The notes beneath the pieces were generated by a model. That model was not told where the DNA came from. It saw only the letters and a program-made list of their open reading frames with translations, and did not search any database. A stretch of DNA of 64,000 bases from Methanomassiliicoccales archaeon (lineage in GTDB: Archaea; Thermoplasmatota; Thermoplasmata; Methanomassiliicoccales; UBA472), in assembly GCA_036504055.1 (NCBI GenBank), contig DASXVU010000036.1, positions 1 through 64,000 on the forward strand. The letters are read 5' to 3'. The translations under genes were made by a program, and so were the position numbers. Below, piece by piece: positions 7,991 through 24,479 of the stretch (within the stretch, counting starts at the first letter, position 1; each line of letters opens with the position of its first letter).

Positions 7991-10837
7991 TCAGATCACC
8001 CCGAAGAGCATCACCGTACCGAGAAGTAGCATCACCGCGCCTATCACGAGCCTGAGTTTGCTTCTCTTCTCCAGGCGCCATTCATTGGCCTTTTGCGCCG
8101 AGACCCCGAAGTAGATTATCACCAATATTGCCGCAAGGGGCAGCACAAAGATGAGGTTGTACAGTACCAGGTAGGGCATGCCCTGAGCGGCGGTCATGTT
8201 GTCGCCCAGCAGGCTCAGTATCGCCAGGTATATGCCTCCGGTGCAAGGGAGCTCGAACATGCTCACCATCGCCCCCAGCACCACTGCCGCCGGGATGCTG
8301 GCCTTCTCGATGTATTTCTTGATCAATGGCTTCCTGGATTCCGGAATGGCCACGGTGGGTTTGTTGCCCGGGAAAATGTAGTCCTTTATGTTGATGACGC
8401 CTATCGCTATTGATAGCACGGCTGCCCCATAGTAAACGTACCTGGTCATTGCCGTGGATTGCAGGAAGGCCAGCAAACCGATCCCAGCGATGAGATAGAC
8501 GAGGAATACGGTGACGATGTAGGCGATGCCGACCAGAAGCACCCGCCTCTTGTTCCCGAGGCTGGTAAGGAACATCAGCAGGAATATCATGACACTTATG
8601 GCGCAGGGATTGATGCTGTCTATCGCTGCCGCAGCTATGACCATCCCTATCGTCAGGTCCGTCGAAAACCCACCTTTGGGTGTGGAATCGAGCACATCGG
8701 TCATCGTGCCATTGCCGGCCGAGCTGAAGGCACAAACCCGGTAATAGTAGACCTGACCGTTTGTGAGACCGGTGTCTGTGTACGAAGTCGAAGTTACCGT
8801 GTTTAATAGCGTCATCGAGGCCGGGCTCGTTCCCCGGAAGATCAAGTAACCCGATATCGCGGCCGATCCGTTGGACGGTGGCGCATTCCATGACAGAAGG
8901 ACTTGCCCGTCCCCTGAGGTGACGACAAAGTCCTGAGGAACGGAAGGAGCAACGGCCGTCCCGATGGAGGTGATGTTCACCTCGTTGGATTCCGGTCCCG
9001 GGCCTTGGGCGTTCACCGCCCGCACTTTATAGTGATAGGTCTGACCGTTGATCTGGTCAGTATCATTGAACCAGAGGTTCGGATATGCGTCGGTCAGGAT
9101 CGTCTCTGCGTCAGAGGAAACCCCCCTCCATAGCTCATAGTTGGTGATGACGGAGCAACCGTCGTAGAACGGAGCCTGCCAGCTGAGGTTGATGTAGCCG
9201 TCGCCGCGGCTGGCCTGGAGGTTTTGGGGCGCGGTAGGTACGGTTGCAGGGGTGGCACTGGACTCGACAGACCTCGGCCCCTCCCCTACCGAGTTCACCG
9301 CGCTCACTTCGTAATAGTAGGTCTGGCAGTTGGTCAGACCTCTATCGGTATAGGTCAGAGCGCTTCCCAGGGTGAGGAACAGGGTCTCGCTGCCAGATGT
9401 CATGGAGCGATAGACGTTGTAGTTTGTGACCGTTGAACCGCCGTTGTTCGCTGGCACGGACCAGGTCAGGATGATCTGACCGTTGCCGGCGGTGGCGGTC
9501 AGGGATCGAGGCGCGGTTGGCGCGGTCGGAGCTTTGCCTGGTATGGCGTAGACCTCATTTGAACTCGGTGCCGATCCCTGTGCATTTTCGGCCCTTATGA
9601 TGTAGTAATAGGTCTGACCGTTTGTCAGGCCAGTATCGTTGAACCAGAGGTTCGGATAGACATCGGTCAGGAACGATTCTTCACCTGGGGATATACCCCG
9701 CCACAGCTCATAGTTGGTGATGACGCTGCCACCGTTGCTGGCAGGTGCTTGCCAAGATAGATTGATACAGCCGTCACCAGGACTTACCTGAAAGTTCTGA
9801 GGAGTGGTTGGCGGTCCGACAGGAGTGGCACTGAGCTGATCCGACACAGGTCCGTCTCCTGCGCCGTTCACTGCGCTTACCCGGTAACAATAGGTCTGGT
9901 CGTTATCGAGCCCGGAATCGGTGTATGTTAGAACGTCGCCAACGGTGGTCAGGAGCGTCTCATACCCGGATGCGATCCCGCGGTACACCCTATAATTGGT
10001 GATAATGCTTCCACCATTACCACTTGGAGACGCCCAGATTAGTACCACCTGACCGTTGCCTGGAGTGGCCGAGGTTAGGCTCGGTGCCGAAGGTGTTGTG
10101 GCCGGAGTGGCGGCGGCTTCGTTGGATCGTTCCCCCGCTCCATCAGAATTTACCGCGCTCACCCTGTAATAATAGGTGACGCCGTTCGTCAGACCGGTGT
10201 CGGTGTAAGCCAGTACGTTTCCCAGAGCTGCGATCGGGGTCGATTCCTGCCCGCCGGAGACATATCCTCGATACACATCATATCCAGTGATAACTGCGCC
10301 GCCATTGTCTGCCGGCGTGGACCAGGTTAGAGAGACGCCTCCATTCCCGGCATTCGCAACCAGGAATTGAGGTGCGGAAGGCGGATCGACCTGGGTCAAT
10401 CGCAGTATGGTCGATTCCAGGTCAGCCCTGATCTCATCCGGACCTATCAGTGCCACCTCGTTCTCTATGAAGACAGAAGGAGTCGTCGTGCGCCCGGTGC
10501 TGAAGGCGTTGTTGAAATCCAAGAACTGCAGATAGTTGGTACGGTTATGGGTTATCTCCAGTTTCAGAAAGGTGACTTGAGTATATTTTGCGGCAAGGCT
10601 ATCGATGAACGGCTCCGTTGCCGCACAGTGTGAGCAGCCGATCGCCCAGAAATAGTAGATGACGATGCTTCCATCGACGCTGTCTCCGATGTATGAAGTT
10701 GCCAGCGGCGCTTTCATCACGATATCGTTCGTCTGTGCTACGGAGAGCGCGCCGTCACCGCCATAGGCAAGGCCTGAGACGGATGCTAGCGAAAGCATCA
10801 ACGCCAATGCCATGATCGTCAGCGAACGCGACCTCAT
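7991..10837 (-). CDS. Secreted thioredoxin-like domain, six FN3 domains and CcdA/DsbD-like membrane domain in one protein
   Basis: 948 residues from ATG 10837 (GGGGGA lies 10 nt upstream; an in-frame TTG at 10855 adds six residues). Order: signal peptide (1-25); thioredoxin-like domain with CSHC active site (Cys68, Cys71) and a likely cis-Pro TTPSVF (Pro120); six fibronectin type III domains (about 152-700), each starting near P-x-x-P-x and holding L-x-W-x-x-P; and a membrane domain (about 725-948) with six helices and the CcdA/DsbD motifs SINPC (Cys745) and ELPCTGG (Cys865). CcdA/DsbD proteins carry electrons from cytosolic thioredoxin across the membrane to an outer thioredoxin. Here donor channel and acceptor are joined by a long stalk, so it probably reduces disulfides or cysteines outside the cell. 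It stands alone and converges with the Bat-type regulator gene. Confidence 0.85.
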   Translation of the reverse strand: MRSRSLTIMALALMLSLASVSGLAYGGDGALSVAQTNDIVMKAPLATSYIGDSVDGSIVIYYFWAIGCSHCAATEPFIDSLAAKYTQVTFLKLEITHNRTNYLQFLDFNNAFSTGRTTTPSVFIENEVALIGPDEIRADLESTILRLTQVDPPSAPQFLVANAGNGGVSLTWSTPADNGGAVITGYDVYRGYVSGGQESTPIAALGNVLAYTDTGLTNGVTYYYRVSAVNSDGAGERSNEAAATPATTPSAPSLTSATPGNGQVVLIWASPSGNGGSIITNYRVYRGIASGYETLLTTVGDVLTYTDSGLDNDQTYCYRVSAVNGAGDGPVSDQLSATPVGPPTTPQNFQVSPGDGCINLSWQAPASNGGSVITNYELWRGISPGEESFLTDVYPNLWFNDTGLTNGQTYYYIIRAENAQGSAPSSNEVYAIPGKAPTAPTAPRSLTATAGNGQIILTWSVPANNGGSTVTNYNVYRSMTSGSETLFLTLGSALTYTDRGLTNCQTYYYEVSAVNSVGEGPRSVESSATPATVPTAPQNLQASRGDGYINLSWQAPFYDGCSVITNYELWRGVSSDAETILTDAYPNLWFNDTDQINGQTYHYKVRAVNAQGPGPESNEVNITSIGTAVAPSVPQDFVVTSGDGQVLLSWNAPPSNGSAAISGYLIFRGTSPASMTLLNTVTSTSYTDTGLTNGQVYYYRVCAFSSAGNGTMTDVLDSTPKGGFSTDLTIGMVIAAAAIDSINPCAISVMIFLLMFLTSLGNKRRVLLVGIAYIVTVFLVYLIAGIGLLAFLQSTAMTRYVYYGAAVLSIAIGVINIKDYIFPGNKPTVAIPESRKPLIKKYIEKASIPAAVVLGAMVSMFELPCTGGIYLAILSLLGDNMTAAQGMPYLVLYNLIFVLPLAAILVIIYFGVSAQKANEWRLEKRSKLRLVIGAVMLLLGTVMLFGVI

Positions 10838-11180: not shown

Positions 11181-14100
11181 TCACTTCTTCTTGCGCCTCT
11201 GCAGCAGCAGGAACGCGGCGGCCAGCAACGCTATGATGCCGATGGCCCCTCCGGCGATCAGCAGCGTGTTGTCACTGCTGGACTCGCTGGCCAGTGCGCT
11301 CAGTGTTCCCAGGGCGGTCGTCTCTCCGGCTGCGGTGGATACGCTCTGCGTGACCGTCTTGTACCCATCCTTGCTGATCGTCAGCGTATATGAGCCGGAC
11401 GTCACGTTCTTGAGCTCAAAGTACCCGTTGGCGTCGGTGGTGGCGCTCATGCCGTTGCTCAGCGTGACCTTTGCGCCGGCCACCGCCTTGCCGCTGGCAT
11501 CCTTCAGGGTGCAGGTTATCTTGCCCTCGTCCTTCATCGTGGTGAACGACCAGCTTACGGTGGCGAGCTCCTTCCCGGACAGGTCCTTACCGCTGACCGT
11601 GACGGTATAGGTGGTGTTATAGGCCAGCGCCGAGGAGGGCGTGTAGGTGGCGTTGTTGCCGTTCCAGGTCAGCACTCTGATGACGCCGTTGACCGAGATG
11701 GTCGTGGCGGTCTTGTTCATCGGCTCACTGAACTGGACGGCGATGGTGGCGCCCCTGGGGACGACGTTTCCGATCGGGGTCTTGTCGGTGACCGTCGGCG
11801 TTGACGATTCGACGGTCAGCGACACCGACGTCTGGTTGACGTTGCCGGCCTTGTCGGTCGCCTTGACGGTTATGGTGTATGGGCCGTCGGCCAAGGTGAG
11901 GACGCGGCTGTTCCCGGTCACGTTGGTCCAGGTCGTTCCGTCAGTGCTGAGCTCGACCTTGTCGATGCCGGAGGTGGCATCGCTGGCTTCCCAGCTCACA
12001 GTCACCGAGCCGGTGATGTTTACGGTGTTGTTGCTCGGCGAGGTTATCACGACTACTGGCTTGACCGTGTCGACGGTGAAGGCAACGGAAGTCTGGTTGA
12101 CGTTGCCTGCATTGTCGGTCACCTTGATGTGCACCTGGTAGGCGCCATCGGCCAGGGTCAGAACGGTGCTGTTCCCGGTCACTGGTGTCCAGGTCGTTCC
12201 GTCGGTGCTGATCTCGGTCTTGGCAATATCCACTACCCCGCTGTCGTTCCAAAGCACCGTCACGGTGCCAGTGTTGTTGTACGAATTATTGGCCGGAGAG
12301 ATGACGACGACGACCGGCTTGACCGTATCGACGGTGAAGGTTACGGAGGTCTGGTTGAAGTTGCCGGCCTTGTCGGTCACCTTGACGTATGTGGTGTAGG
12401 TTCCGTCGGCCAGGGTGAGTACGTGGCTGTTCCCGGTCACGGTGGTCCAGGTCGTTCCGTCGGTGCTGATCTCGGTCTTGTCGATGCCGGACGTGGCATC
12501 GCTGGAGGTCCAGTTGACGGTCACCGAGCCGGTGGTGTTCTTCGAGTTGTTGCTCGGGGAGGTTATCACGACTACCGGCTTGACCGTGTCGACGGTGAAG
12601 GCAACGGAGGTCTGGTTGACGTTGCCCGCTTTGTCGGTGACCTTGACGGTCACGGTGTAGGCGCCATCAGCCAACGTGAGGATGGTGCTGTTCCCGGTCA
12701 CTGGTGTCCAGGTCGTTCCGTCAGAGCTTATCTCGGTCTTGTCGATCAAGGACGCGGCCTCGCTGGTGTTCCATTGCACCTTCACCGAGCCGGTGGTGTT
12801 GTACGAGTTGTTGCTCGGCATGATGATGGTCAGGTTCGATCCGAGCGTCTTGAGGACGATGGTCACATTGTCGCTGACCATCAAGCCCTGGCTGTCGGTC
12901 GCGTTGACGGTGATGTTGTTGATGCCCAACACCAATGTGGCCGTCGCGGTCCATGAGCTTATTCCGCTGCCCTGACCGGACGCTCCGGAGACCAGATTGT
13001 GCCAGGTGACGTCGGCGATGATGTAACCCGTGGTTGTTCCCGACAGAACTATGCTGGTCGCGTTAGTGTACAGGTTCGAAGGGGGTGAAAGGATCTTCAC
13101 CGAGAGGGCCACTGGGTGGTTGTCAACGGATAGGCCCCCGGCGATGGCGTATGACGAATCGACTATCCCGTCCTTGTTGGCGTCGGGAGTGGCCCAGTCG
13201 CCCCAATAGTTGCCGATCGTTCCATTCCAGCGGTTGGAGGCGTCGTCATGGGCCTGGATATGGTCCGCGCTGTACACCGAGGTGCTGCCGTTGTTGCCGA
13301 TCAGCACATTGGTGTAGATAAGATCGACAGCCCCGGTGCATTCCGTCAGGTTGATGCCGTAGTCCAAGGAATTGAAGATCTTGTTCCTGTTGACGGTATT
13401 GCCGAAGGACTTCCACAGGCTGATACCGCAATCCAGGGCACCGACGACGGTATTGTTGTAGAGGACATTGCCGTTGGACAGCTGGGTGAATATGCCTCTG
13501 AACGATGAACCGTTCACGATGTTATTGGAGACGTTGTTGTTGTTCGATGCCTCGATGTATATGCCGTTCCCGGTTGAATGATTCACTCTGCTATCGGTGA
13601 CATTGTTGTTGTTAGAATAAGATAGGGCTATACCATCGAATGTGTCTTTGACGGTGCTGCCGGCGATGACATTGTTCGTTGAATACATCACCACTATGCC
13701 GTACGCAGTGCTGTACACGACCTGGTGAGTGACGACGGTACCGGATACAGCGTTGTGCGACGACAGGTACAGCCGAATGCCGGCGTGCCAGGCATCCACG
13801 ATCTGGTTGTTGGTGTAGGTACAGTAGTTGGACGAGAACGAGTAGATCGCGTCGTACGCGCCGGTGATCACGCTGTTCTCGACCGTGATGTGAGAGCTCC
13901 AGAAGATTACTACTCCGCCGTGGTTGTTCAATCCGTTGACGTTAGCGTAGGTAACGTTCAGCAGGATGACCTCGCCTGCCCCGGAGGGGACCGAGGCGTT
14001 GTCCATGTTCTGGTTCTTAAGGAAGAACACGGCCGCGCCGTTGACGGTGTTGGTGGATGAGATCGCCGTGGCGTCGATGTAGGCTTGAACGCCGCTGTTG

Positions 14101-14528
14101 CTGTCGACGTGCCTAAGCTCGATCGAGCAACCGGTGAGCTTGTTCCTCTCCAGGGTGGCGGTGCTGGAATCTAGATAGATGCCGTGAGTCCCTGCCGCTC
14201 CGGTGATGGTGTTGTTGTCTACGAGTATGTTACTTGATCCGACGATCTGGATACCATAATTAGCATTGTATATGGTGCAATTGAAGATCGTAACATACAG
14301 GTTGACGTTGGTAATCGATATGCCCGCGCCCCCACTGCCGTCGATGCTGAGGTTGGCGATGACCTTCGGGTCCGAGGCCGTTCCGGCTCCCGGATAGCTG
14401 TCAAGGTCAGTGTTGCCATTAATTACGATTGGGGTCGATGTGGTGAGCGTAGCGCTCGCCATCGACGTGCCAAACACGCTAATCAGCAAGGCAATGGATA
14501 TTATGGCTGTCAGAAACTTGGTCCTCAT
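11181..14528 (-). CDS. Beta-helix (NosD-like) surface protein with Ig-like repeats and C-terminal membrane anchor
   Basis: 1115 residues. Signal peptide (1-27); a right-handed parallel beta-helix (about 60-470) made of short N/G-rich turns such as GIYIEASNNNNVSNN and GIVVMYSTNNVIAGS; an Ig-like segment (about 475-560); four Ig-like repeats (about 565-930), three of which begin DTVKPVVV, with STDGTTW cores; a Big_5-like domain (TPIGNVVPRGATIAVQFSEPMN); a carboxypeptidase-regulatory-like domain (GKAVAGAKVTL...TDANGYFEL); and a final helix with RRKKK tail. Many N-x-S/T sites suggest glycosylation. It is probably anchored in the membrane with the ectodomain exposed, serving adhesion or polysaccharide binding. 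A TATA-like TTAATATACG and GGGGAT precede the ATG. The ligand is unknown. Confidence 0.85.
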   Translation of the reverse strand: MRTKFLTAIISIALLISVFGTSMASATLTTSTPIVINGNTDLDSYPGAGTASDPKVIANLSIDGSGGAGISITNVNLYVTIFNCTIYNANYGIQIVGSSNILVDNNTITGAAGTHGIYLDSSTATLERNKLTGCSIELRHVDSNSGVQAYIDATAISSTNTVNGAAVFFLKNQNMDNASVPSGAGEVILLNVTYANVNGLNNHGGVVIFWSSHITVENSVITGAYDAIYSFSSNYCTYTNNQIVDAWHAGIRLYLSSHNAVSGTVVTHQVVYSTAYGIVVMYSTNNVIAGSTVKDTFDGIALSYSNNNNVTDSRVNHSTGNGIYIEASNNNNVSNNIVNGSSFRGIFTQLSNGNVLYNNTVVGALDCGISLWKSFGNTVNRNKIFNSLDYGINLTECTGAVDLIYTNVLIGNNGSTSVYSADHIQAHDDASNRWNGTIGNYWGDWATPDANKDGIVDSSYAIAGGLSVDNHPVALSVKILSPPSNLYTNATSIVLSGTTTGYIIADVTWHNLVSGASGQGSGISSWTATATLVLGINNITVNATDSQGLMVSDNVTIVLKTLGSNLTIIMPSNNSYNTTGSVKVQWNTSEAASLIDKTEISSDGTTWTPVTGNSTILTLADGAYTVTVKVTDKAGNVNQTSVAFTVDTVKPVVVITSPSNNSKNTTGSVTVNWTSSDATSGIDKTEISTDGTTWTTVTGNSHVLTLADGTYTTYVKVTDKAGNFNQTSVTFTVDTVKPVVVVISPANNSYNNTGTVTVLWNDSGVVDIAKTEISTDGTTWTPVTGNSTVLTLADGAYQVHIKVTDNAGNVNQTSVAFTVDTVKPVVVITSPSNNTVNITGSVTVSWEASDATSGIDKVELSTDGTTWTNVTGNSRVLTLADGPYTITVKATDKAGNVNQTSVSLTVESSTPTVTDKTPIGNVVPRGATIAVQFSEPMNKTATTISVNGVIRVLTWNGNNATYTPSSALAYNTTYTVTVSGKDLSGKELATVSWSFTTMKDEGKITCTLKDASGKAVAGAKVTLSNGMSATTDANGYFELKNVTSGSYTLTISKDGYKTVTQSVSTAAGETTALGTLSALASESSSDNTLLIAGGAIGIIALLAAAFLLLQRRKKK
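11806..12835 (-). repeat. Four tandem Ig-like coding repeats of about 258-261 bp
   Basis: Within the beta-helix surface gene, units recur at 258 and 261 bp: the word GACCGT(G/A)TCGACGGTGAAG starts at 12063, 12321 and 12582, and a diverged copy lies near 11806. Long stretches (for example around the TGGTTGACGTTGCC and CAGGTCGTTCCGTC words) are nearly identical between units. This points to recent duplication or gene-conversion homogenisation, and copy number may vary between strains. Confidence 0.8.
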
Positions 14529-21209: not shown

Positions 21210-24200
21210 CTACTTCCTGGCCCTCCGTCTGTTGAACAGCACCAGTCCTGCTATGAGCATGACGGAAACGACCGCCAGTCCAGTAATGGCCACGATGGGC
21301 AGCGGGCTGTCGCTCAGGTTACTGGAACCAGTCTTGGTCACCTCGCCCAGGCTCGCCACGATGCTGTGGGTGCTGTGGTGATATTCGAAGTACAGGATCC
21401 AGGAGGATTCGGTGGAGTTGAGCTTATAGCTCATTTCCTTTCCATCCATAGAAAGCCGTATCTCGGAGCCGTTGGCCACCAGGTCCTTGCTGATGACGAT
21501 CCGTGAATAACCATTGGTCCCGGTCTCGCCGCTCACATTGAAGCTCAATTTCTCGCTCTCTGAGTTGAACGACAGATCGGTGATGGTGGAGTTCGACTGG
21601 ACCGTGAAGACATATTTGTCCGAGGTCTCGGTGATCGCCAGGCTCTTGATGGAGGTCGAAGGCAAGTAGATCGCATTGCCCGCCCAGGCCGCTTTCACCA
21701 TAAAGATGCCGGTTGCATGCGGGTTCCATTGGGTCGAGAAACTGCCCTTGACGGATGTGCTGACCGATGATATGTCCGACCAGCTCAGACCGTTGGTGGT
21801 GCTGTACGAGAGGCTGATGCTCAATCCCTCGATCGGCATCCCTGCGTTGACGGTGACCACGCTGCCGGTCAACGTCACCAATGCACCGATGGAGCTGGAT
21901 GATTCCGTCTCCATATCCAATCTGACCGCCGTGGAGGCATAGATCGGCCCGGTCTCCTTGCTAGGGATGGAGCTGCCCAGCTGATTGACCGCTTTGACGT
22001 AATAGTAGTAGTTGGTCCCGAGGACTATCGCCCTGTCGGTGTAGGAATTGACAGAGGTGTTGGCCAGCATCGATTCCGTTCCTGCGGAGGTTCCCCGTAA
22101 GATGCTGTACGATACCGGATATCCCCCGTTGTCGCTGGGGGCGGACCAGTCGAGAACGATCCCGCTGTCGATGGTCGAGACAGAAACGTTGAGCGGCTCC
22201 GACGGTACTGTCTTGGTCGGTATGGCGACGGCATAAGTGGTCGGTCCGGTTCCGGCCGGATTATGCGCGGCCAGGGTGAAGTTGTAGCTCTGTCCGTTGA
22301 GCAGGCCGGTGATCGCGAAGGTCAGGCCGGTCGGGTTGATGGACAGCACCACCCCATCCTGATACACGACATAATGATCGATCGCTGCCCCGCCGTTGTT
22401 GCTGGGCGCGGTCCACGTCAGTGTCACGAACTCATTGCCCGGGGTCGCAGTCAATCCCGCCGGGGCACCCGGTATCGTGTACGGCATGGCCAGAACAGGG
22501 GCCGACTTGGCGCTGAGGCCCATGGAGTTATGCGATGCGATCGAATAGGAATACGATTGTCCGTTGAGCAGTCCAGTGACCGACCAGGAGTTCCCGGTTA
22601 CCTGGATTATCTCGATGTCGTTCTGATAGACCACGTAATAGTCGATCGGAGCTCCTCCGTTGTCGGCCGGGAGCGCCCAAGCTAGGTCGACCTTGCCATC
22701 ACCTGGCGTTGCGGTCAGGCCTTCCGGGGCGCCCGGTGATGTCAATGCCGGTCTCGGTGCCGCGGAAACGGTCGTCGTCCTCGGTCCCTCCCCTGCCCCA
22801 TTGCGGGCGGAAACAGCATAATCATAGGCCTGTCCAGAGGTCAGTCCAGTGATGGTGAATGACGTTTCCGTTGTTTGCTGCACGACGACCCCGTTCTGGT
22901 AGATGAAATAGGAGTCTATTGCCGTTCCTCCGTTGGACAGCGGTGCCGTCCAGTTCAAAGTGATCTGCAGATGCCCGGGTACTGCAGTCAGACCGGTCGG
23001 GGCGTCGGGGATGGCCACAGGAACGGATACCGTTGCCACGGACTGTGCGCCGATGCCGGCCAGGTTATGCGCGGCGACGGTAAAGGTGTATGATTGGCCG
23101 TTGACCAGAGCGTTGATGATGGCCACTGGCCCCGACTGTTGATAGGTCAGTGCGACCCCGTCCTGATATACCACATAGTAATCGACCGCACTGCCACCGT
23201 TATAGGCCGGCGCGGTCCAGTTCAGGGTCACCTGTTCGTTGCCTGGAACGGCCATCAGACCGGTCGGGGCGTTAGGCAAGGTGTACGGTATCGCCGTGAT
23301 GGGAATGGATTTGACGCTCAGGCCGGCGCTGTTATGGGCCGCGACGGCAAAGGAATATTGTTGGCCGGGGAGCAATTCGGAAATGGTCGCGGTTGTGCCA
23401 GGGGCAGTGGTCGTCAACGCGACCCCGTCCTGATAGATCACATAGTGATCGATCGTGGCTCCTCCGTTGTCCGCCGGAGCCGCCCATGCCAGGTCGACCT
23501 TCTCATTTCCTGGGGTTGCGGTCAGTCCGGTCGGGACGCCGGCCGGGTCTGGTGTCGGGGTCGCTGGGATGGTGGCCTTGACGCTCTGCCACATGGAATT
23601 GTTGGCGGCGACAGCGAACTGATATGGCCTTCCGTTCTCCAGGTTGTTTATCAGGTAATAGGTCTGGGAGGTTTTGCCGATATATGTTCCATCCTGATAG
23701 ACAGCATATGAATCAATGGCCCCGCCTGTTTCCGATGGGGCAGCCCAGGTAAGATTCACGGCCTTGTTGTGCATGGTAGCCGACAAAGAGACCGGTGCGC
23801 CAGGTACGCCCAGCGGTATCACCATTACTGGAGCGGTCTGTTGGCCTGTCCCGACCTCGTTATGCCAAGCGGCGGAAAAGTAATAGGTCCTGCCATTCGT
23901 CAGGCCGGTGACTTGTAGATAAGTGTCGGTGGTCTGCGCGACTTCCACCCCATCCTGATAGATGATGGTGTATAGGATCGACAAACCACCAGCATCGGAC
24001 CGGGCACTTATATGGTAAGAGATATAGGCAGACCCGTCTCCTGCGTCGGCGGTGAAGTCCTCCACTTGGCCTGGCGTATTTACCGGATATGACTCCGCAG
24101 GATCGCTTGGCGACCCCACTCCGACAGCATTGTGCGCTGCCACGGTCCAATCGTAGGGATTCCAATCCGACGGTGATTCGATATATTGGTACAGTACTGA

Positions 24201-24479
24201 GATAACGGCCTTCAACCCGCTGTATTGATCAGGAAGGGGCGCCCCGTCCTGGTATACGACGTAATAATCTATTGGGCTGCCTCCGTCCGAAGCCGGAGCG
24301 GCCCATGTAAGGGTCACGTTGTTTATTCCAGAGGTTGCCGATAGTCCTGTCGGAGTCCCGGGCAGCGTTGCGTCTGGGGCAGCGGCAACCGTTTGCATTC
24401 CGAAAATGACAAATGTGCTCGACAGTAGGAACAGTGCGATGACTGCGGTTTTTGCGATCGACTTGGATTTCTCCCCCAT
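21210..24479 (-). CDS. Surface protein with nine FN3 domains and C-terminal membrane anchor
   Basis: 1089 residues. Signal peptide (1-33, ending AAAPDA); nine fibronectin type III domains (about 40-830), each with a P-x-x-P/G-x-x-L-x-A opening, an L-x-W-x-A-P strand, then NGG and a YxVYQDG strand; an Ig-like domain (LVTLTGSVVT...IPLKGSF-like, about 850-950); a beta-rich stretch; a membrane helix (IVAITGLAVVSVMLIAGLVLF) and RRRARK tail. It is probably displayed on the cell surface as a long rod for adhesion or for holding other proteins. The 270-bp repeats diverge more than the Ig repeats of the 11-14 kb gene. A TATA-like TAAATTATTAAG lies upstream. The binding partner is unknown. Confidence 0.85.
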   Translation of the reverse strand: MGEKSKSIAKTAVIALFLLSSTFVIFGMQTVAAAPDATLPGTPTGLSATSGINNVTLTWAAPASDGGSPIDYYVVYQDGAPLPDQYSGLKAVISVLYQYIESPSDWNPYDWTVAAHNAVGVGSPSDPAESYPVNTPGQVEDFTADAGDGSAYISYHISARSDAGGLSILYTIIYQDGVEVAQTTDTYLQVTGLTNGRTYYFSAAWHNEVGTGQQTAPVMVIPLGVPGAPVSLSATMHNKAVNLTWAAPSETGGAIDSYAVYQDGTYIGKTSQTYYLINNLENGRPYQFAVAANNSMWQSVKATIPATPTPDPAGVPTGLTATPGNEKVDLAWAAPADNGGATIDHYVIYQDGVALTTTAPGTTATISELLPGQQYSFAVAAHNSAGLSVKSIPITAIPYTLPNAPTGLMAVPGNEQVTLNWTAPAYNGGSAVDYYVVYQDGVALTYQQSGPVAIINALVNGQSYTFTVAAHNLAGIGAQSVATVSVPVAIPDAPTGLTAVPGHLQITLNWTAPLSNGGTAIDSYFIYQNGVVVQQTTETSFTITGLTSGQAYDYAVSARNGAGEGPRTTTVSAAPRPALTSPGAPEGLTATPGDGKVDLAWALPADNGGAPIDYYVVYQNDIEIIQVTGNSWSVTGLLNGQSYSYSIASHNSMGLSAKSAPVLAMPYTIPGAPAGLTATPGNEFVTLTWTAPSNNGGAAIDHYVVYQDGVVLSINPTGLTFAITGLLNGQSYNFTLAAHNPAGTGPTTYAVAIPTKTVPSEPLNVSVSTIDSGIVLDWSAPSDNGGYPVSYSILRGTSAGTESMLANTSVNSYTDRAIVLGTNYYYYVKAVNQLGSSIPSKETGPIYASTAVRLDMETESSSSIGALVTLTGSVVTVNAGMPIEGLSISLSYSTTNGLSWSDISSVSTSVKGSFSTQWNPHATGIFMVKAAWAGNAIYLPSTSIKSLAITETSDKYVFTVQSNSTITDLSFNSESEKLSFNVSGETGTNGYSRIVISKDLVANGSEIRLSMDGKEMSYKLNSTESSWILYFEYHHSTHSIVASLGEVTKTGSSNLSDSPLPIVAITGLAVVSVMLIAGLVLFNRRRARK

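Follow-up and report, generated by a model that had tools for sequence, protein, structure and literature searches.

The closest described systems are thiol relays of the CcdA/DsbD type. E. coli DsbD and ScsB combine a transmembrane thiol relay with an extracytoplasmic thioredoxin-fold domain on one chain; in DsbD, the membrane part is preceded by an Ig-fold alpha domain and followed by a thioredoxin gamma domain. Members of the CcdA/DsbD_TM family (PF02683; solved structure 5vkv) have six helices, with one cysteine each in helix 1 and helix 4 (motifs SPC and (S/W)PC), and an extracytoplasmic thioredoxin partner. In the pneumococcal CcdA-Etrx-MsrAB2 system, CcdA passes electrons from cytosolic thioredoxin to a surface thioredoxin (PMC3914529); there the components are separate proteins, the thioredoxin is a lipoprotein and a dedicated surface Msr is present.

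We analysed a stretch of 64,000 nt from a Methanomassiliicoccales archaeon (the window), which encodes on its minus strand (7991..10837) a protein of 948 aa with a secreted thioredoxin, six FN3 domains and a CcdA-like membrane domain. The protein resembles DsbD and ScsB in its fused thioredoxin-fold domain, but this domain is N-terminal and FN3 domains serve as the linker. With CcdA it shares six helices, the cysteines in helices 1 and 4 and an extracytoplasmic thioredoxin; it differs in having the thioredoxin on the same chain, in its motifs (SINPC and ELPCTGG) and in giving no DsbD_TM match. The route that we propose for it, from inside to an outer thioredoxin, is that of the pneumococcal system carried out by a single chain.

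Domain architecture

The ORF starts with ATG; an in-frame TTG is situated 18 bases upstream. A signal peptide (residues ∼1–25; 10763..10837) is seen as a hydrophobic helix behind MRSRS. The thioredoxin-fold domain (residues 58–149; 10391..10666) scored 25.4 bits with Pfam Thioredoxin (cutoff 23.5) and was modelled by AlphaFold2 as β-α-β-α-β-β-α with pLDDT ∼90. Its CxxC motif, CSHC (C68 codon, 10634–10636; C71 codon, 10625–10627), lies at the first helix, opposite the cis-proline P120. The six FN3 domains (residues ∼152–720; 8678..10384), delimited by Pfam (fn3, E 1.9e-49, six stretches), were assigned by pairwise identity to types in the order A A B A B C. The six-helix membrane domain (residues 724–948; 7994..8668) carries C745 in SINPC of the first helix (codon 8603..8605) and C865 in ELPCTGG of the fourth helix (codon 8243..8245); both are invariant in 51 aligned domains, and C865 aligns with the second CcdA cysteine. 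The other five cysteines of the protein (317, 357, 504, 561 and 702) all lie within FN3 domains.

In the AlphaFold2 model of the full protein, β-sandwich strands (160–704) are followed by six membrane helices; the membrane domain modelled alone reached pLDDT 82 and pTM 0.80. A Foldseek search with the full model gave 50 listed matches, all of them FN3 or Ig-type proteins, and a search of the PDB with the membrane model gave nothing significant. The original prediction of a secreted thioredoxin, six FN3 domains and a six-helix domain is thus borne out by Pfam, AlphaFold2 and the orthologues, and it had placed Cys68, Cys71, Cys745 and Cys865 correctly. Since the orthologues share the same four cysteines, a chance origin of the arrangement is excluded.

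Identity of the membrane domain

Neither the profile search of the protein's own genome nor hmmscan matched the protein to Pfam DsbD_TM; the sole Pfam match of its membrane domain was SfLAP, with 30.8 bits, below the 35-bit cutoff. Among 34 full-length relatives, 31 matched Pfam SfLAP, 12 NCBIfam ArsG, 9 NCBIfam DsbD and 7 Pfam DsbD_TM (E up to 0.01). Aligned by hhalign with archaeal DsbD_TM/CcdA proteins, the family profile gave 96.3%, E 1.7e-9 over 213 columns, with INPC on APC and LPCTGG on SPCVGP, so that both cysteines fall on those of CcdA. The match to the CcdA structure 5vkv was weak (E 3), yet both cysteines were again in register. An SfLAP relative (L010), which has neither a thioredoxin nor the two channel cysteines (NPS and LPTS at their positions), gave an alignment no worse than that with CcdA (97.1%, E 6.4e-11). 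The functional claim thus rests on the cysteines and not on overall similarity; it is the CcdA profile match, with cysteines in register, that supports the predicted relationship to CcdA/DsbD. Judged by sequence, the domain belongs to the wider LysE–DsbD superfamily and has the cysteine pair of CcdA; its homology to the SfLAP/GAP/ArsG branch of LysE proteins is at the level of the fold.

Relatives with thioredoxin and channel

A membrane-domain profile, applied via two conserved peptides to 84,980 species genomes, yielded 401 stretches, of which the best 80 were fetched. These came from Methanomassiliicoccales, Methanomicrobiales, DPANN and other archaea as well as from Patescibacteria and related bacteria. 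Thioredoxin and channel were found in one frame at 70 of these 80 loci (at a further locus, L033, the fusion is interrupted by the contig end). Ten genes encode the channel only; a secreted thioredoxin-profile gene directly precedes six of them, and a gene for a secreted CPHC protein precedes a seventh. As the two parts are fused in some genomes and adjacent in others, they are likely to work together. A scan of viral contigs revealed no relative.

The fusion proteins of this family (L022–L101), from archaea and candidate-phyla bacteria, have the order of parts and the invariant cysteines seen here, and their membrane domains are 41–74% identical to the one in the window. C68, C71, P120, C745 and C865 are invariant in the 34 full-length relatives, and both channel cysteines are present in all 108 relatives inspected (104 by pattern, 4 by eye), the first always in NPC and the second always before T or S. 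In 51 relatives the mean numbers of Lys plus Arg were 2.9, 5.6 and 5.1 in the predicted inside loops versus 0.2, 0.7 and 0.7 in the outside ones; this concentration of positive charges places the N-terminus and the thioredoxin outside. The thioredoxin–channel fusion is therefore a widespread architecture, and the novelty of our protein is its FN3 linker. The original prediction knew of no described protein of this kind, which does not hold for the fusion; the FN3 insertion alone is unusual, and within the open-licence literature we found no FN3-containing thioredoxin–CcdA protein described.

Several related channels have long N-terminal regions (L104, L110, L115, L118, L121 and L129), and several of these have a second CxxC upstream of the channel-adjacent thioredoxin. 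At a Woesearchaeota locus (L099, 5047–6681), the genes for a secreted CPHC protein, a CcdA-like channel and, judging by eye, a VKOR-like protein adjoin, an arrangement that would join oxidising and reducing arms at one locus.

Distribution and history of the FN3 linker

The distance from CxxC to the membrane domain has a median of 106 residues among relatives. In several Methanomassiliicoccales relatives the linker, which is disordered and has a high content of D, N, G, T and P, is 131–142 residues long; in Methanomassiliicoccus sp. QR_Bin.16 (G029, locus L022) it has 368 residues with three FN3 domains, and in the window protein ∼656 residues with six. The fusion occurs in 9 of 147 Methanomassiliicoccales genomes, in every one with thioredoxin and channel on one chain, and only the window protein and that of G029 contain FN3 domains. 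Among the relatives examined, other archaea share the order of thioredoxin followed by channel, but the FN3 domains in between are confined to these two proteins.

The two are sisters in the membrane-domain tree (support 92/94). Their FN3 domains, A A B A B C here and B A C-like in G029 by pairwise identity, share types, with 60% identity between the third domain here and the first of G029, and 57% between the first here and the second of G029. The shared types suggest a single FN3 insertion in the common ancestor, after which copies would have been gained or lost. A common archaeal reductant, itself scarcely described in the literature that we found, would have had its reach altered by inserted domains within one order. 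How far extracytoplasmic thiol reduction can extend in space becomes testable when proteins with different linkers are compared.

In another family of the phylum, one protein (L113, G142) has ∼100 extra residues between thioredoxin and channel; they look Ig-like by eye, are not recognized by Pfam and perhaps represent an independent lengthening of the linker.

Proposed thiol relay

The protein is quite probably a one-polypeptide relay of CcdA/DsbD type that reduces extracytoplasmic disulfides. Its electron flow, the outward direction, the substrate and the purpose of the stalk are what we infer from the comparisons. A cytosolic thioredoxin with WCGPC is encoded close to a TrxR-like gene, and the enzyme encoded there would keep it reduced. 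Within the six-helix domain, this thioredoxin would reduce C745–C865, from which electrons would pass to the outside and reach C68/C71 of the extracytoplasmic thioredoxin on the same chain; disulfides of secreted or envelope proteins would in turn be reduced by the latter. No VKOR-type oxidative partner scored over cutoff in the 147 Methanomassiliicoccales genomes; together with the cytosolic thioredoxin and the TrxR-like gene, this makes reduction from inside to outside the most economical reading. The predicted self-contained relay with its own outer thioredoxin gains support from the invariant cysteines and P120, the CcdA profile match, the adjacent split genes and the finding of no further DsbD_TM protein in the genome, its outer location from the positive-inside charges and the inner donor from the TrxR-like neighbour. 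CSHC and CPHC, the commonest motif of the family, resemble DsbA-type motifs, and so the redox potential of the domain may be rather oxidising. Its presence suggests that methanogens generally considered cytochrome-free maintain an extracytoplasmic thiol economy.

Genes of cytochrome c maturation

Methanomassiliicoccales are usually called cytochrome-free, yet the genome has a ccm set. Genes for a CcmA-like ABC ATPase, CcmB, CcmC, CcmE and CcmF form an unexpected cluster on the minus strand (L176, 7186–13580; G000:C34:42000–61000), which adjoins an operon for a hydrogenase-like membrane complex as well as genes for secreted Ig-domain proteins whose Cys-His motifs are unusual. Such proteins, secreted and anchored C-terminally, are encoded next to ccm genes at L176 13891–18273, L193 13944–15125, L195 6910–7908, L196 11815–12831 and L194 7129–9447; their motifs (GDCSCHG, DCGFQPGCH, IGCAGTSKHS and DCSAHS) are possible atypical haem or metal sites. 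In three genomes of genus g14 (G029, G041 and G045), a CcmF-like gene neighbours genes for an iron-sulfur membrane protein and for a secreted protein with the GDCSCHG motif. Judging by these genes, methanogens usually assumed to lack cytochromes may possess a cytochrome c system.

The fusion (nine genomes) and PF01578 (11 genomes over cutoff) coincide in 6 of the 147 genomes (Fisher p 2.8e-6), a value inflated by kinship, as the association at genus level is not significant (p 0.12). PF01578 is missing from three genomes with the fusion (93–99% complete), and five genomes with PF01578 lack the fusion. In G045 both are located on one contig, ∼7 kb apart.

Alternative roles and the function of the FN3 array

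A role as reducing arm of cytochrome c maturation, with CcmG and CcdA united in one chain, would agree with the ccm set, with the lack of any further DsbD_TM protein in the genome and with the co-occurrence with PF01578, including the shared contig in G045. We consider this unlikely, given the loss of significance at genus level, the exceptions in both directions and the atypical motifs (CSCH, CX5CH) of the putative target proteins; moreover, M. acetivorans makes cytochrome c under reducing conditions without ccmG and ccdA (PMC9084895). The protein may thus take part in cytochrome c maturation, though not as its defining task. Another reading addresses the membrane domain: it would be a small-molecule exporter of the SfLAP/GAP/ArsG branch, its thioredoxin handling thiols or metalloids at the mouth and its cysteines serving in binding rather than in electron relay. 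The SfLAP matches (the best Pfam family here and in most relatives), the ArsG matches and the strong profile alignment with an SfLAP protein that has no channel cysteines speak for such an exporter, which we nevertheless regard as very improbable: the compared SfLAP protein lacks the NPC and the second cysteine before T or S that the family always keeps, and nearly all members of the family pair with a secreted thioredoxin. The thiol relay remains our preferred reading.

The FN3 array of this relay can be read in two ways. Six FN3 domains would span roughly 20 nm, and in place of the short disordered linker of relatives they would widen the radius of thioredoxin action. The series from a linker of ∼106 residues through 130–140 disordered residues to three and then six FN3 domains agrees with a stalk that sets the reach, for disulfides remote from the membrane, within a thick envelope or an inter-membrane space; we offer this tentatively, as a somewhat doubtful reading. 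For Methanomassiliicoccus luminyensis, an outer layer that is electron-dense and may be a second membrane has been described, separated by a thick transparent zone (PMC4243693). An envelope of this kind in the archaeon studied here would make a long reach useful. The original prediction of a stalk holding the thioredoxin at a distance left unaddressed that the thioredoxin must return to the channel for re-reduction, with which a rigid stalk conflicts; hinges or intermolecular transfer are required. Low-confidence, possibly flexible stretches of the AlphaFold2 model (151–156, 626–635 and 707–725) could be such hinges. The array would then bend at residues 150–156, 626–635 and 707–725, or the channel of a neighbouring molecule would serve the thioredoxin. 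Alternatively, the array would be an envelope-binding or adhesive scaffold that keeps the thioredoxin off its own channel, each being served by other donors and thioredoxins. The same span of six domains, other FN3 surface proteins of the genome (e.g. the nine-domain protein at 21210–24479) and the enrichment of FN3 domains in the free-living clade of Methanomassiliicoccales (PMC7883539) fit a scaffold; the retention of thioredoxin and channel on one chain in every orthologue of the order and the possibly flexible stretches (151–156, 626–635 and 707–725) do not, and we think it improbable.

Gene context

No gene neighbour beyond the gene itself is conserved among the Methanomassiliicoccales orthologues, so that context indicates no substrate. 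Methionine sulfoxide repair outside the cell was considered and rejected: MsrA and MsrB are encoded in the genome, but both start without signal peptides. Directly upstream on the same strand lies a gene (11181–14528, minus) for a surface protein with β-helix (NosD-like), Ig and carboxypeptidase-regulatory-like domains, a C-terminal anchor and six cysteines. Another surface protein (21210–24479, minus), encoded ∼10 kb from the thioredoxin–FN3–CcdA gene, has nine FN3-like domains (seven by Pfam), a C-terminal membrane anchor and no cysteines.
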